Assembly (NCBI GenBank): GCA_947581645.1
Contig: CANPVF010000021.1
Span: 1-36,700 of the forward strand
Source: Candidatus Caribbeanibacter nitroreducens
GTDB lineage: Bacteria; Gemmatimonadota; Gemmatimonadetes; Palauibacterales; Palauibacteraceae
Direction of reading: 5' to 3'
DNA length: 36,700 nucleotides
Shown: positions 19,617 through 25,946 of the stretch, one piece after another
Layout of the letters: the number at the start of each line of letters is the position of its first letter
Position numbering within the stretch: the stretch's first letter is position 1
Made by a program: the position numbers and the translations under genes
Notes under the pieces: model-generated
Told to the model about the DNA's origin: nothing
Databases searched by the model: none
The model's input: the letters and a program-made list of their open reading frames with translations, nothing else

Positions 19617-21626
19617 CTATCCCGCGGCTCGGATCTCCTCGAAGACGTGACCGGCGTCCTCGATCCCCTTCGCGTCCACGACGACACCGTCGCGCTCGAC
19701 CCGGGCCAGGACCCGGTTGAGCAGGGCGTCCTCCGGCAGGGTCTCGGCGAGCCCGTCGGGCGATCCCACCATGACCAGCATGTCCCGCGTGCGGGAGAGC
19801 GCCACGTTCAGCAGCCGGGGGAAGTCCCGGTTCTTCCCCTCGTTCAGGAACCAGCTCCGGCCCGGCGGGGCGTCCACGGTGTCGAACACCACCAGCCGCT
19901 TCTCGCGACCCTGGAAGCGGTGGATCGTGCTCACCTCCAGGTCGTCGGGCGCCGCCCGCCCCAGCCGCTTGCGGGCCAGCTTCCAGATCCGCTTCGACTG
20001 CACCCGGTACGGGGCCACCACGCCCACGTCCGAGTAGCCCTGCTCGGCGGCCAGCTGGAGGAAGCGGACCACGGCCTCCACGTGCACCGCGTTGGCCCGG
20101 GATCCCTCCACCCGCTCCGTGGAGGGGTCCATGGAGTCGGTGTCCAGCAGGACCAGCGAGCTGGCGGGCAGCGGCCGGTCCAGCACCTCCGGGGCGTCCT
20201 GGAGGCGGCCGGCGTAGAAGATCTCGCTCACCAGACGGCGGACCTGCGGGGCCATCCGGTACTGCTGGACCAGCATGGCGCAGAGCTGGTCGTTCTCGGA
20301 CGGGAGCGAGATCTCGCCCCGCACCGTGTCCTGGACGATGCCCGCCTCGCGGAACAGGTCCCGACTCAGCCACCGCTCGGCCTTCTCGCCGCGGGAGGTG
20401 ACCACGGCCGGGAGCTGCTGGAAGTCGCCGACGGCCACCGCCCTCCCGGAGGTCTGGCCCGCGGCCAGCGCCACGTACGAGAGCGGCGCCGTGCTGGCCT
20501 CGTCGAGGACCAGCGAGTTGAAGCGGAGCTGCGCCAGCTCCTCCCAGGCGGCCAGACGGGCGAAGGTGGAGAGGACGACGCTGGCCTCCTCCAGCGTCCG
20601 GGTCGTCTCGCGGCCGATCTCGGCGTTCAGCCGGGTCAGGCGGGAGAGGGCGTCCTCGTCGCCCTCGGAGCGGGCGGCCGCCACCAGGCGCCGGTGCCGG
20701 CTCCGGAGCGTCCGGCCGCGCACGCCGCCGCCGGAGCCCCCGACGAGCCGGTCCTCGAGCTCCTCCAGCTCGGCCTTCACGCTGCCGGCGCCGGCCTCCA
20801 GCCTCCGCTCCAGGGCGGCGTCCAGCGACAGCTCGTCGTCGCCGGTCATGCTGAACTCGGCGCCGACACGGACCACGCGCCCGGCCTCCACGGCCCCGCT
20901 GCCCATGGCGCGGGCGACCCACTCGGCGGCCTCGTCCACGGCGCCGTTGGTGGTGGCGGCCACCAGCACCTTCTCGGTCTCCGCCAGCTCCGCCACCGCG
21001 TGGCCCAGCAGCCGGGTCTTCCCGGTCCCCGGCGGGCCCCACACGTACTGGACGTCGCTGCCCAGGAGCCGGGCCAGGGCGTCGCGCTGCGACTCGTTCA
21101 GGTCGCGGGCGGCCTCCTCGCTCGGCTCCCGCCGGTCCACCTCCGGGTAGGTGCGGCCGAAGAGGCGCAGCACCGTCTCCGGGTGGTACTCCTCCGGCTC
21201 GGCCAGCATGCGCTCCAGCTGCTCGGACAGGGCGGCCAGCAGCCACGTGGGGTCGAACTCCAGCTCGGCGCGGCCGGGGCGCTCCCCCAGCCACTGCCCG
21301 ACGGCCACCCGCACGCGGCCGGAGCTCTTCTCGAAGCCGGCCACGAAGCCCAGGGCCTCCCCGTCCTCCGTCCGGATCCGCACGGCGTCGTCCACCCGGA
21401 CCCGGGGCCCGTCCTCCGCGGTGGGGAGGCTCCGGAGGCGCCACTGGTAGACGAAGCCCGAGCCGCCGGTGTCGCGGACGCGTCCCTCCTCGGCGTCCAG
21501 GGGACGGTCCAGGCCGCGCTCGGCGAGCTCCTCCTCCACGGCCTCGACCTCCTCGGCCACGGCTCCGAGGCAGCCCTCGAGGATCTCGGCGTACTGCGGG
21601 TCGACGTCCTGCGCGGCGGTGGTCAT
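19617..21626 (-). CDS. Superfamily 1B (Upf1/IGHMBP2-like) DNA/RNA helicase
   Basis: A 669-aa ATP-dependent helicase. The N-terminal part (about 1-170) is a coiled-coil and small beta domain. The core has Walker A GPPGTGKT (197-204), Walker B as VLDEAS, motif III VAVGDFQQLP, motif V STIHRFQGREK and motif VI NVALSRTRDML. This motif set is that of the AAA_11/AAA_12 Upf1-like clan; bacterial members are little studied, so DNA versus RNA preference is open. The ATG MTTAAQ is favoured over a GTG 16 codons earlier, but neither has a ribosome site. Divergent from the AhpD-like gene (113 bp), followed by dtd. Confidence 0.92.
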   Translation of the reverse strand: MTTAAQDVDPQYAEILEGCLGAVAEEVEAVEEELAERGLDRPLDAEEGRVRDTGGSGFVYQWRLRSLPTAEDGPRVRVDDAVRIRTEDGEALGFVAGFEKSSGRVRVAVGQWLGERPGRAELEFDPTWLLAALSEQLERMLAEPEEYHPETVLRLFGRTYPEVDRREPSEEAARDLNESQRDALARLLGSDVQYVWGPPGTGKTRLLGHAVAELAETEKVLVAATTNGAVDEAAEWVARAMGSGAVEAGRVVRVGAEFSMTGDDELSLDAALERRLEAGAGSVKAELEELEDRLVGGSGGGVRGRTLRSRHRRLVAAARSEGDEDALSRLTRLNAEIGRETTRTLEEASVVLSTFARLAAWEELAQLRFNSLVLDEASTAPLSYVALAAGQTSGRAVAVGDFQQLPAVVTSRGEKAERWLSRDLFREAGIVQDTVRGEISLPSENDQLCAMLVQQYRMAPQVRRLVSEIFYAGRLQDAPEVLDRPLPASSLVLLDTDSMDPSTERVEGSRANAVHVEAVVRFLQLAAEQGYSDVGVVAPYRVQSKRIWKLARKRLGRAAPDDLEVSTIHRFQGREKRLVVFDTVDAPPGRSWFLNEGKNRDFPRLLNVALSRTRDMLVMVGSPDGLAETLPEDALLNRVLARVERDGVVVDAKGIEDAGHVFEEIRAAG

Positions 21627-21739
21627 GACGGTGGCCGAAGGTATGTCATCGAGTACGCGGCACCAATCGTGCACGAGGTCACCGCCGGAACGCGCCCGAA
21701 ACGCACGCTGTTCAACACCGAGGACCGCGGGGGTCGAGA

Positions 21740-22111
21740 TTGAGCGACAGCCTCGACGAGTTCCGCGAGTTCCGGGAGCGGATGGACGAGGAGATCCGGG
21801 ACGCGGGCAACCTCACCGTGAACCGGTTCTTCGCCCTCGACGACCGGGCGTACCGGGACGGTGCCCTCGACGCCTCGACCAAGGAGCTGCTCGGCCTGGT
21901 GGCGTCGATGGTCCTCCGGTGCGACGACTGCATCACGTACCACCTCGTTCGCTGCCGCGAGGAAGGCTTCACCGACGAGGAGCTGTTCGAGGCGTTCTCC
22001 GTGGCGCTCGTGGTCGGGGGCTCCATCGTGATCCCCCACCTGCGGCGCGCCGTGGACACGCTGGACGACCTGCCCGATCCCGGCGACGGGGCGGGGAGCG
22101 ACGGGGACTGA
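21740..22111 (+). CDS. Carboxymuconolactone decarboxylase/AhpD-like protein
   Basis: A 123-aa all-helical protein of the CMD/AhpD family with the redox-type motif CDDCITYH (Cys61, Cys64, His68), which in AhpD-like members provides peroxidase-related thiols. It could act as a small alkylhydroperoxidase or, in the gamma-carboxymuconolactone branch, as a decarboxylase; the CxxC motif favours the redox role. The start is TTG, with only a G-rich stretch upstream. It opens a plus-strand run followed by DoxX, also often linked to thiol or oxidative-stress systems. Confidence 0.9.
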   Translation: MSDSLDEFREFRERMDEEIRDAGNLTVNRFFALDDRAYRDGALDASTKELLGLVASMVLRCDDCITYHLVRCREEGFTDEELFEAFSVALVVGGSIVIPHLRRAVDTLDDLPDPGDGAGSDGD

Positions 22112-22217: not shown

Positions 22218-22610
22218 ATGTGGAACGGGCTCTTCTGGACCGGACGCATCCTCTTCGCCGCGATCTTCATCATGTCCGGCCTGAACCACTTCACCCAGGC
22301 CGGCGCCATGACCCAGTACGCCGAGTCCAAGGGCCTGCCCGCCCCGCGCTTCATGGTGCTCTTCAGCGGCGCCATGATCCTCGCCGGGGGGCTGAGCGTC
22401 CTCCTCTGGCAGTACGTGGTCTACGGCGCCGGGCTCCTCTTCGTCTTCCTGCTCGTGGCGGCCTTCACGATGCACGACTTCTGGGCCATCGAGGACGAGC
22501 AGCAGAAGCAGAACGAGATGACCCAGTTCATGAAGAACCTGTCGCTGTCCGGCGCCGCCCTGATCCTCTACGTGCTGGCGCAGGTCCCGGACCCGAACGC
22601 CCTCTTCTGA
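22218..22610 (+). CDS. DoxX family membrane protein
   Basis: A 130-aa inner-membrane protein with four hydrophobic helices and the family signature GRILFAAIFIMSGLNHFTQ near the start. DoxX-like proteins are found with thiosulfate:quinone oxidoreductase, thiol-oxidative-stress complexes and many unrelated systems, so role and substrate are open. The ATG has GGGAGG seven bases upstream. The O-methyltransferase gene follows after 9 bases, suggesting co-transcription. Confidence 0.93.
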   Translation: MWNGLFWTGRILFAAIFIMSGLNHFTQAGAMTQYAESKGLPAPRFMVLFSGAMILAGGLSVLLWQYVVYGAGLLFVFLLVAAFTMHDFWAIEDEQQKQNEMTQFMKNLSLSGAALILYVLAQVPDPNALF

Positions 22611-22619
22611 GCCGGGACG

Positions 22620-23639
22620 TTGACCGGACGCGGATCGTCCCGGGGCCGGTCGGGCCCCGAGCTGGCCCGGCTCCCCACCTACCGGCGGCACGCCGACTGG
22701 GCCGTGGTGGCCGCCCTGGGACTGGAGGTCGGGGTGTACGACGCCCTGGACGACGGTCCCCTCCCGCCGGACGAGCTCGCCCGGCGGCTCTCGGCCGACG
22801 AGCGGGGCCTCGGGATCCTCCTGGCGGCCCTGGAGGAGCTGGGGGCCGTGCGCCGTGACCCGGAGGGATGGCGGCTCACGGGACCGGGTCGGGCCCGCTT
22901 CGTGGACGAGGACACGCCGGACCACCAGGCCGGCGCCGCGGAGCTCTGGCTCTCCAACACCCGTCGGCTGCTGGAGGAGCTGCCGGAGGCCGTGCGCACC
23001 GGAGAGCCGGTGCGGACCGACCAGGCCGAGGGCGCGGACGAGGGGGACGTGGCCCGGTTCCAGGCCGCCATGGCGGACAAGGACCCGGAGCTGGTGGAGC
23101 GGGTGGCCGGACGGTGCGCCGAGGCGTGCCTGGAGCGCGCCCCGGACGGGGGGCGAGCCCTGGACGTGGGCGGCGGCCCCGGCGTCTTCGCCCGTGCCCT
23201 CCGTGACCGGGGCTTCCGGGTGACCCTGTTCGACACCCCGGAGGTCATCGACCACGTGGCCGACGCCTACGGCCTGGCCGACGCCGACGGGATCGACCTC
23301 GTCTCCGGAGATTTCGGGGAGCGCCTCCCGGAGGGCCCCTTCGACCTGGTGCTCCTGGCCAACATCACCCACCTCCTCCCCCCGGCGAAGAACGTGGACC
23401 TCCTGACCCGCGTGGCCGATCGGATGCCGGAGGGGGGCGTGCTGGCGGTCCTGGACTTCGTCCGGGGGGCGTCCTCCTTCGCTCCCCTGTTCGGGATCAC
23501 CATGCTCCTGAACACGGACGAGGGGAATACCTACGAGCGCCCCGACTACGAGCGGTGGCTCGAGGAGGCCGGGTTCGAGGGCATGCGCCTCCGGCCGGCG
23601 GACGGGGACCGGCACCTGCTGACGGCCCGGCGATCGTGA
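22620..23639 (+). CDS. SAM-dependent O-methyltransferase, acetylserotonin-methyltransferase-like
   Basis: A 339-aa class I methyltransferase with the winged-helix dimerisation domain (about 20-100) of plant and bacterial small-molecule O-methyltransferases and the SAM-binding motif ALDVGGGPGVFARAL (180-194). The later ANITHLLPPAKN stretch follows the family pattern. The substrate is unknown; phenols, hydroxyindoles and polyketides are typical of the family. The TTG start is the first in frame after doxX and is only moderately supported. Its stop overlaps the GTG of the aromatic decarboxylase (GTGA), so the two are coupled and may act in one pathway. Confidence 0.87.
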   Translation: MTGRGSSRGRSGPELARLPTYRRHADWAVVAALGLEVGVYDALDDGPLPPDELARRLSADERGLGILLAALEELGAVRRDPEGWRLTGPGRARFVDEDTPDHQAGAAELWLSNTRRLLEELPEAVRTGEPVRTDQAEGADEGDVARFQAAMADKDPELVERVAGRCAEACLERAPDGGRALDVGGGPGVFARALRDRGFRVTLFDTPEVIDHVADAYGLADADGIDLVSGDFGERLPEGPFDLVLLANITHLLPPAKNVDLLTRVADRMPEGGVLAVLDFVRGASSFAPLFGITMLLNTDEGNTYERPDYERWLEEAGFEGMRLRPADGDRHLLTARRS

Positions 23640-25126
23640 GCGCGCCGGCGGGAGGCCGGGAGCCCGGCCCGGACATGGAGCCGGAGGCGTTCCGCCAGGC
23701 GGCCCGGGAGGTGGCCGACTGGGCCGCGCGCTACCGGGAGCAGGTCGACGAGCATCCCGTCCTGGCCCGGGTGGAGCCCGGCGAGGTGGCCTCGCGCCTG
23801 GCGGCGAGCCCGCCGGAGGAGCCCGAGCCCTTCGCGGACATCCTGGACGACGTGGAGCGGGTCGTCCTCCCGGGGATCACGCACTGGAACCACCCCGGCT
23901 TCTTCGCCTACTTCGCCAGCTCCTCCTCGGCCCCGGCGCTCCTGGCCGAGTTCGTGGCGGCGGCCCTCGGGGGGAACGCCATGCTGTGGCGCACCTCGCC
24001 GGCCGCCACCGAGATGGAGGAGCGGACCGTGGACTGGCTCCGGCAGTGGGTGCACCTGCCGGAGGCCTTCCGGGGCGTGATCCTGGACACGGCCTCCACC
24101 TCGAGCTTCACGGCCCTCCTGGCGGCCCGGGAGGAGACCGGACTCGACGTCCGGCGCCGGGGGATGGCGGGCCGTGCCGACCTCCCGCCCCTCACGGCCT
24201 ACGTCTCCGATCAGACCCACTCCTCGCTGGAGAAGGCCGCCATCGCCGCCGGGATCGGCCAGGAGCGGGTCCGCCGCGTGCCCACCGACGACCGCTTCCG
24301 GCTCCGCCCGGACGCCCTCCGGGAGGCCATGGAGGAGGACCGGGATGCCGGTCGCCTTCCGTTCTTCGTGTGCGCCACCGTGGGCACCACCTCCACCACC
24401 AGCGCGGACCCCGTGGCCCCGGTGGCCGACGTGTGCGAGGAGCAGGACGCCTGGCTGCACGTGGACGCCGCCTACGCCGGGCCCGCCGCCGCGCTCCCGG
24501 AGCGCCGCGACCTCTTCGCCGGCTGGGAGCGCGCCGACTCGGTCGTGATCAACCCGCACAAGTGGCTGTTCACGCCCATGGACTGCAGCGTCTTCCTGTT
24601 CCGCGACGACGAGGCGGTGCGGCGCTCGCTGGCCCTCACGCCCGAGTACCTCTCCAGCGGCGAGGAAGGGGCGACCAACCTGATGGACTACGGCCTGCCC
24701 CTGGGCCGCCGGTTCCGGGCCCTGAAGCTGTGGTTCCTGTTCCGGTTCTTCGGGGGCGACGGGCTCCGGGAGCGCCTGCGGGCGCACCTGGACTGGACCG
24801 GCGACTTCGTCCGGTGGATCGAGGAGGACCCGCGCTTCGAACGGACGGCGCCGGCCCCCTTCAGCACGGTCTGCTTCCGGACGAAGCCGCCGGAGGAGAC
24901 GGCCGGCGACGAGGTCGGCCGGGAGACCGTGAACGACTGGAACCGCAGGCTGCTCTCCGAGGTGAACCGGGAGGGGTCCGTCTTCCTGTCCCACACCGTC
25001 CTCGACGGCACCTACACCCTTCGCCTGGCCGTGGGCAGCATCCACCACCGGCGCCAGGACGTCCGGCGCGCCTACGAGCGGCTGGTCGAGGCCCGGGAAC
25101 GGCTCGCCCGGGGAGCGGACGGGTAA
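23636..25126 (+). CDS. PLP-dependent aromatic-L-amino-acid decarboxylase
   Basis: A group II PLP decarboxylase that turns Trp, Tyr, Phe, DOPA or 5-hydroxytryptophan into the amine; cytosolic. The 496 aa include THWNHPGFFAYFASSSS (82-98), His195 that stacks on PLP (SDQTHSS), Asp277 (HVDAAYAG) and Lys309 (NPHKW) that binds PLP. The family sequence begins at MEPEAFRQ, so an ATG at 23675 is a good alternative start; the GTG here is chosen for the 4-base overlap with the methyltransferase. Known enzymes prefer aromatic substrates; the exact one cannot be read from sequence. A glutamate decarboxylase is less likely. Confidence 0.93.
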   Translation: MSAPAGGREPGPDMEPEAFRQAAREVADWAARYREQVDEHPVLARVEPGEVASRLAASPPEEPEPFADILDDVERVVLPGITHWNHPGFFAYFASSSSAPALLAEFVAAALGGNAMLWRTSPAATEMEERTVDWLRQWVHLPEAFRGVILDTASTSSFTALLAAREETGLDVRRRGMAGRADLPPLTAYVSDQTHSSLEKAAIAAGIGQERVRRVPTDDRFRLRPDALREAMEEDRDAGRLPFFVCATVGTTSTTSADPVAPVADVCEEQDAWLHVDAAYAGPAAALPERRDLFAGWERADSVVINPHKWLFTPMDCSVFLFRDDEAVRRSLALTPEYLSSGEEGATNLMDYGLPLGRRFRALKLWFLFRFFGGDGLRERLRAHLDWTGDFVRWIEEDPRFERTAPAPFSTVCFRTKPPEETAGDEVGRETVNDWNRRLLSEVNREGSVFLSHTVLDGTYTLRLAVGSIHHRRQDVRRAYERLVEARERLARGADG

Positions 25127-25205: not shown

Positions 25206-25946
25206 ATGACACGCCACGCACCCGCCCCCTCGCGCCAGCTCGCGGCCGACGCCGGCCCGACCTCGGCGGCCCGCCGGCTCTCCGAGGCCCTGCTCGTGGC
25301 GGTGACGGCGCTGCTCGCCACGGCGGGCTGCGCCGAGGGCCAGGGCCAGTCCGCCGGGGGCGTCGTGCCGCAGAACCCGGACACGGTCGCCCGGCTGGCG
25401 GATCAGGCCCGGGTGAAGGGGGACACGACGGCTCCGATCCGGGTCATGGAGGTCTCGGACTTCCAGTGCCCGTACTGCCGCCAGTACTTCGAGCAGACCT
25501 ACCCGACCATCGACAGCCTCTACATCGAGCGCGGGCTGGTGGAGTACGTGTGGCTGGCGTTCCCCAACCCGAACCACCAGAAGGCGTGGCCCGCCATCGA
25601 GGCCGCCTTCTGCGCCGGGGCCGCCGGCAGCTTCTGGCCCATGCACGACCGCCTCTTCGCCCGGCAGGGAGAGTGGTCGAACGCCGAAGACCCGGTGTCG
25701 GCGTTCGTCGGCTACGCCGGATCGCTGGGCATCGACGAGGAGTCGTTCCGCTCCTGCATGGTGCAGGACCGCGCGGCCAGCCTCATCATCCGCGACTACG
25801 ACGCGGTGACGAGAGGAGGCGTGAAGGGCACGCCCTTCTTCGTCATCGCCGACTCCCTCTCCTTCCAGGGCGCGCAGCCGGTGAGCAAGTTCCGCTCGGT
25901 CCTGGACGACGTGCTGAGGGCGAAGGGCATCGAGCCGCCGCAGTAG
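25206..25946 (+). CDS. DsbA-family thioredoxin-fold lipoprotein
   Basis: A 246-aa exported thiol-disulfide oxidoreductase. The N-terminal positive region and hydrophobic stretch (about 25-40) end at Cys42 in TAGC, a lipobox with Thr rather than Leu at -3, so lipidation is likely but not certain. The DsbA domain has the active site CPYC (Cys88, Cys91) and the cis-Pro loop GTPFF (Thr209-Pro210). Two further Cys, in AFCAG and RSCMV, may pair. It resembles DsbA/BdbD-like periplasmic oxidases. ATG with AGAGG upstream. It ends 8 bases before the convergent gene at 25955. Confidence 0.92.
   Translation: MTRHAPAPSRQLAADAGPTSAARRLSEALLVAVTALLATAGCAEGQGQSAGGVVPQNPDTVARLADQARVKGDTTAPIRVMEVSDFQCPYCRQYFEQTYPTIDSLYIERGLVEYVWLAFPNPNHQKAWPAIEAAFCAGAAGSFWPMHDRLFARQGEWSNAEDPVSAFVGYAGSLGIDEESFRSCMVQDRAASLIIRDYDAVTRGGVKGTPFFVIADSLSFQGAQPVSKFRSVLDDVLRAKGIEPPQ

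Follow-up and report, generated by a model that had tools for sequence, protein, structure and literature searches.

We analyzed a window of 36,700 nucleotides, corresponding to contig C21 of a 2.96 Mb genome (199 contigs, 96% complete). In this window, the gene for a predicted methyltransferase (MT) lies directly upstream of the gene for an aromatic-L-amino-acid decarboxylase (AADC). The plus strand carries, in order, the genes for an AhpD-like protein, a DoxX protein, MT, AADC, and a DsbA-like lipoprotein, and a divergent helicase gene is located upstream of this run. The features are listed below.

19617..21674, minus strand: divergent AAA_11/AAA_12 helicase, which in the family bounds the AADC locus on its upstream side
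21740..22111, plus strand: AhpD/carboxymuconolactone-decarboxylase-like protein, the first gene of the plus-strand run
22218..22610, plus strand: DoxX-family membrane protein, which directly precedes AADC in five relatives lacking MT
22620..23639, plus strand: MT, a predicted COMT-type (Methyltransf_2) SAM-dependent methyltransferase of 339 aa with a TTG start and His251 at the general-base position
23636..23639, plus strand: GTGA, the MT stop codon overlapping a possible AADC start
23636..25126, plus strand: AADC, a predicted group II PLP decarboxylase of 496 aa (start at GTG 23636) or 483 aa (start at ATG 23675)
25206..25946, plus strand: Thioredoxin_4/DsbA-like lipoprotein, which in the family bounds the AADC locus on its downstream side

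The two reading frames, the enzyme families, and the tight co-directional order agree with the initial annotation of this DNA. Its remark that neither a hydroxylase nor an N-acetyltransferase is nearby also holds, as the Pfam scan detected no aromatic hydroxylase or acetyltransferase among the 30 window proteins scanned.

Overlap of the two reading frames

The annotation further held that GTGA ties MT to AADC. The overlap is present: at the MT stop codon it is in frame with AADC, and the same arrangement is found in the two other genomes with a strong MT match, G023 (locus L041) and G016 (locus L044). The start codon that it offers has a rival. In the window, an in-frame ATG (23675) lies 13 codons past the GTG, at the edge of the AADC part that can be aligned to solved relatives, and in G023 the corresponding distance is 15 codons. 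In G016, the GTG itself has an ATG-like distance to a conserved Trp, and only the GTG fits there. A start of AADC within the overlap is therefore likely in G016, whereas GTG 23636 in the window is a possible candidate that is unproven against ATG 23675.

The overlap is also not specific to MT. In all five loci that bear DoxX and lack MT, the DoxX stop codon lies within an uninterrupted AADC reading frame, and the candidate AADC starts are a CTG at -1 or a GTG/ATG at -19 (19 nt upstream). Therefore, the tight packing before AADC is a habit of the locus, and we rejected the idea that the GTGA overlap proves a pathway. The packing is compatible with co-transcription of the two genes but is no evidence for a two-step pathway.

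Properties of the two enzymes

PF00282 matches AADC over its full length (2.6e-98; residues 48-417, profile positions 1-375 of 375; Pfam scan). Among solved structures, the closest to AADC is the DOPA decarboxylase (DDC) 7xin, which also aligns over the full length (1.1e-124). An alignment with pig DDC places H192, T246, D271, H302, K303, Y332, and G354 (pig DDC numbering) in AADC, so that the complete catalytic set of the DDC-type enzymes and their Gly at position 354 are shared, and all seven residues are invariant in 36 of 36 aligned AADC orthologues, including that of the window. We take K303 to be the PLP lysine and H192, D271, T246, and H302 to be its partners. The loop residue Tyr332 presumably marks a decarboxylase rather than an aldehyde synthase, and Gly354, which we assume to be common to DDC and indole-accepting enzymes, presumably marks an enzyme that is not histidine-decarboxylase-like. 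As judged from the aligned sequences, this residue set is that expected of a true DDC/tryptophan-decarboxylase-type enzyme and speaks against both an aldehyde synthase and a histidine decarboxylase. The sampled PF00282 paralogues have Ser at position 354 (4/4) and in part Phe at position 332 (2/4). One such second paralogue, which is about 35% identical and has Ser at DDC position 354, occurs in several genomes (loci L073, L074, L075, and L076). Because substrate promiscuity has been reported for bacterial AADCs (PMC9048412), the substrate of AADC is not readable from its sequence. P. putida AAAD, a characterized bacterial enzyme of the DDC type, is reported to prefer L-DOPA (PMC9048412). A PdxJ gene for pyridoxal phosphate synthesis (PF03740; 1354-2094, minus strand) is located about 20 kb from the PLP-dependent AADC in the window, which is probably a coincidence.

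The Pfam scan assigned PF00891 to MT above the curated cut-off (1.9e-14; 54 bits against 22.3), and the dimerisation domain PF08100 fell just under its own cut-off (24.1 bits against 25.6). The predicted structure of MT (pLDDT 87.1, built with 42 sequences) has a helical N-terminal dimerisation domain and a Rossmann domain, and the 50 PDB matches listed for it have Z scores of 25.6-29.8 over 300-321 residues. His251 occupies the general-base position of COMT-type methyltransferases. It is invariant in 42 of 42 aligned MT sequences, of which the window sequence is one, and it aligns with the His residues of acetylserotonin methyltransferase (ASMT) and MfnG. In homologues, the equivalent residue is reported to participate in deprotonation (PMC10784701).

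The initial annotation described MT as acetylserotonin-methyltransferase-like. Human ASMT is the top solved fold for the MT model (Z 29.8, rmsd 3.9, 314 aligned residues), and its His is in the same place. However, its identity to MT is 23%, and LaPhzM (Z 29.0) is tied with it by fold, followed by PigF (28.6), RedM (28.2), DsyB (28.0), DtpM (27.8), and MfnG (27.5). In the PDB sequence ranking, ASMT is fourth after 5i2h, MfnG (5.2e-15), and 2r3s. The acidic residues of ASMT that we take to assist the His, D256 and E311, have no acidic counterparts in MT: the Asp after the His aligns with Leu and the later Glu with Thr, although a local shift is possible at 23% identity. "ASMT-like" is thus a label for MT at the level of the fold.

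A family profile of MT ranks RedM first (212 bits, 8.5e-62), followed by 2r3s, 3mcz, 22ow, DsyB (188), MfnG (183), and ASMT (179), and the polyketide enzyme DnrK is lower (151 or less). A grouping of MT with polyketide enzymes, which the annotation had named as one of two findings that would speak against its reading, is not indicated by this ranking, which orders named enzymes by score and is not a tree. MfnG, the L/D-tyrosine O-methyltransferase of the marformycin pathway, is reported to act on both L- and D-Tyr, placing the methyl group on the phenolic oxygen (PMC10792529). It shares with MT the COMT-type fold, the His, and 26% identity. It is the second-best PDB sequence match of MT, whereas it stands 2.3 Z below ASMT by fold and is the sixth distinct name by profile. 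The two also differ in setting, as MfnG is described as serving a peptide synthetase (PMC10792529) and MT adjoins a decarboxylase.

Distribution and relatives of AADC and MT

AADC is core to the lineage, and MT is optional. AADC matches at 1e-60 or better were found in 41 of the 43 order genomes, 40 of which have a close copy (a match or pieces at least 51% identical); G006 has a 33% copy only. In a second family, AADC matches were found in 19 of 21 genomes, 18 of them at 48% identity or more. Those of G263, G340, and G342 in that family contain one in-frame stop each, which may reflect decay or an assembly error. MT matches at 1e-20 are confined to 5/43 genomes of the order and are strong in three, namely the source genome, G023 (53%), and G016 (52%), with MT identities of 50-53%; the other two are at 29-30% identity. 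The second family has MT in 2/21 genomes. MT is immediately 5' of AADC in all three strong carriers, and G016 retains the pair although AhpD and DoxX are absent there. The conservation of the pair that the annotation depended on therefore holds within the strong carriers but not across the order, where a close AADC far outnumbers a strong MT.

We fetched the AADC loci of 35 of the 39 other order genomes with a close AADC, of which 29 belong to the same family and 6 to the other family of the order. The helicase gene is upstream of AADC in 27 of the 29 same-family loci, and in the remaining two the contig begins there. The DsbA-like gene is downstream in 28, and in the remaining one the contig ends. 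MT, DoxX, and AhpD are variably present between the helicase and AADC. Neither the helicase nor the DsbA-like gene was seen at the six loci from the other family. Throughout the sampled family, the AADC locus thus lies between the helicase and the DsbA-like lipoprotein, neither of which has an obvious functional link to it.

Two explanations for the patchy presence of MT were considered and rejected. Relocation of MT within the relatives that lack it at this site is contradicted by the 43 whole genomes, which gave no further strong match. For a remnant at the site, tblastn searches of the fetched loci up to E 1 returned weak matches only, all with E values of at least 0.17, and these fell within the helicase or lay elsewhere in the loci. 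In addition, no AADC residues track the presence of MT beyond chance; two positions do so, a number reached by 16% of 200 random triples.

In the AADC tree, the three MT carriers are ungrouped, and the presence of MT requires three changes, with gain and loss being indistinguishable. The window and G023 sequences sit on long branches, and support for their fork is weak (83/72). In the MT tree, one clade (100/98) unites the three AADC-linked MTs with that of G342, and the free tree places the unlinked MT of G342 among the three. A single origin of the three, imposed by grouping them to the exclusion of G342, is compatible with the data (p-AU 0.158). The MT gene of G342 is directly followed by a GmrSD-type gene instead of AADC, and the AADC of this genome is on another contig. 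The G342 contig begins inside the MT gene, so only the downstream side is visible.

A class search found MT at 1e-28 in 14 of 394 genomes. At the 11 class relatives outside the family, no AADC occurs in the fetched stretch, several contigs being short (L089, 5.3 kb; L093, 3.2 kb; L094, 7.5 kb). No AADC was found either at the best 80 of 405 MT relatives from a wider contig scan, at least four of which repeat class loci. Together, the 91 loci contain no AADC at E 1e-4 (at least four contigs were fetched twice, and some are short), and among these fetched loci (11 class loci and the best 80 of 405) we found no MT-AADC pair outside the order. The nearest named MT relatives among the matches listed (the best 80 of 405) are Gemmatimonadota assemblies, which suggests that the source genome is also of this phylum. 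A viral scan with MT gave one weak relative, and PHROGs gave no match for MT or AADC.

The neighbors of the MT relatives, which were chosen with a crude GC3-heuristic gene caller, are diverse. Four of the 11 class loci (L088, L090, L091, and L096; another family) have a gene for a PF00850 deacetylase of the histone-deacetylase type immediately before the MT relative. At L098 it directly follows an XdhC gene, and at L097 it lies about 1.2 kb downstream of a gene for a molybdenum-hydroxylase subunit of the xanthine-dehydrogenase type. On a Rubrobacteraceae contig (L104:5974-7273), there is an overlap between the MT relative and a small ORF, whose match to a Franean1_4349-type ribosomal-peptide precursor (PF14407) is weak and falls short of the cut-off.

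Possible joint chemistry and alternatives

As a tentative reading, which we prefer without regarding it as established, MT and AADC act on a shared compound. AADC would turn an aromatic amino acid into its amine, and MT, directly upstream in a few lineages and probably on the same transcript, would tailor the compound of AADC. In the simplest chemistry, MT would methylate the phenol of tyrosine or tyramine to give O-methyltyramine (4-methoxyphenethylamine), with the two steps in either order; another methylated aromatic amine could also be the product. Tyrosine and tyramine already bear a phenol, and therefore no hydroxylase would be needed. The annotation had assumed that a hydroxylated precursor must come from elsewhere, which is not required if tyrosine or tyramine is O-methylated directly. 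Because tyrosine and tyramine carry this phenol and MfnG is reported to methylate Tyr (PMC10792529), the path from tyrosine to O-methyltyramine appears to be the shortest route. A substrate with a ready phenol is also favored because the whole genome (96% complete) yielded no PF00351 aromatic hydroxylase. For the same reason an indole route is less likely, so that of the methoxytyramine- or methoxytryptamine-like amines proposed initially, the latter loses weight. The data show the two genes, their order and families, the catalytic residues of AADC, and the patchy presence of MT; that the genes share a transcript and a substrate, that the route starts from tyrosine, and that methylation is on oxygen and not on nitrogen is our inference.

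Evidence that the pair forms a joint pathway is modest, and MT and AADC are both ordinary, known kinds of enzymes. The position of MT directly 5' of AADC in every strong carrier of the order, at 50-53% MT identity, argues for it. On the other hand, most relatives have AADC without MT (close AADC in 40/43 genomes, strong MT in 3/43), AADC has no residues that track MT beyond chance, and G342 has an MT of the same clade with no AADC directly downstream. The ranking of MfnG (Z 27.5 against 29.8 for ASMT by fold, sixth by profile) also weighs against a tyrosine pathway. Because the helicase (27/29) and the DsbA-like gene (28/29) neighbor AADC more widely than MT does, the MT-AADC adjacency may be plain synteny. 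We consider it doubtful that Gemmatimonadota have, in this pair, a bacterial two-gene route dedicated to making a methylated trace amine such as O-methyltyramine, with a core decarboxylase and an optional methyltransferase. Our literature search found nothing that pairs an AADC with an O-methyltransferase in Gemmatimonadota, and nothing on O-methyltyramine biosynthesis by a tyrosine decarboxylase and a methyltransferase. If the route were real, a group of bacteria that has received little study would have trace-amine chemistry as a standing trait, and some of its lineages would have a methylated variant. The more solid point is the wide conservation of AADC, with a close copy in 40/43 genomes of the order and 18/21 of the second family. 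The benefit of aromatic amines to bacteria is described as not fully understood (PMC12607914).

Nearly as likely as the reading with a shared compound, MT could have an unrelated small molecule as its substrate and simply be part of a compact run of genes before AADC. Its relatives have other partners, and its place here would then be where it landed. The AADC frame overlaps its upstream neighbor, be it MT or DoxX, and the 11 class relatives outside the family include four that come after a PF00850 deacetylase gene and two that are downstream of xanthine-dehydrogenase-type or XdhC genes. The lack of AADC at the 91 loci searched at E 1e-4 (with at least four contigs fetched twice, and some short) points in the same direction, as do the 40 of 43 order genomes with no strong MT match, two of which have a 29-30% relative. 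Such a chance neighborhood is less easily reconciled with the three strong order carriers, which all have MT directly 5' of AADC, and with G016, which keeps this order behind different upstream genes.

Starting again from a shared compound, MT could act on nitrogen and convert the amine made by AADC to N-methyl-tyramine, -tryptamine, or -phenethylamine, which we regard as improbable. The COMT-type family is reported to include the N-methyltransferases RedM and PhzM (PMC10784701), and RedM, which acts in the reductasporine pathway, ranks first among the PDB entries matched by the MT family profile. The deacetylases beside MT relatives could also free amines. However, RedM is reported to have Ser at the position of the family His, and a His introduced there to abolish its activity (PMC10784701), whereas the family His is present in MT and in the 41 sequences aligned with it.

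A serotonin/melatonin-like route from 5-hydroxytryptophan via serotonin to methoxytryptamine is very improbable: it would draw on the ASMT-type fold of MT and on the Gly at DDC position 354, which we take to be shared with indole-accepting enzymes, but the genome has no PF00351 hydroxylase, PigF, RedM, DsyB, and DtpM are within 2 Z of ASMT, and Leu and Thr replace the presumed acidic partners of the ASMT histidine.
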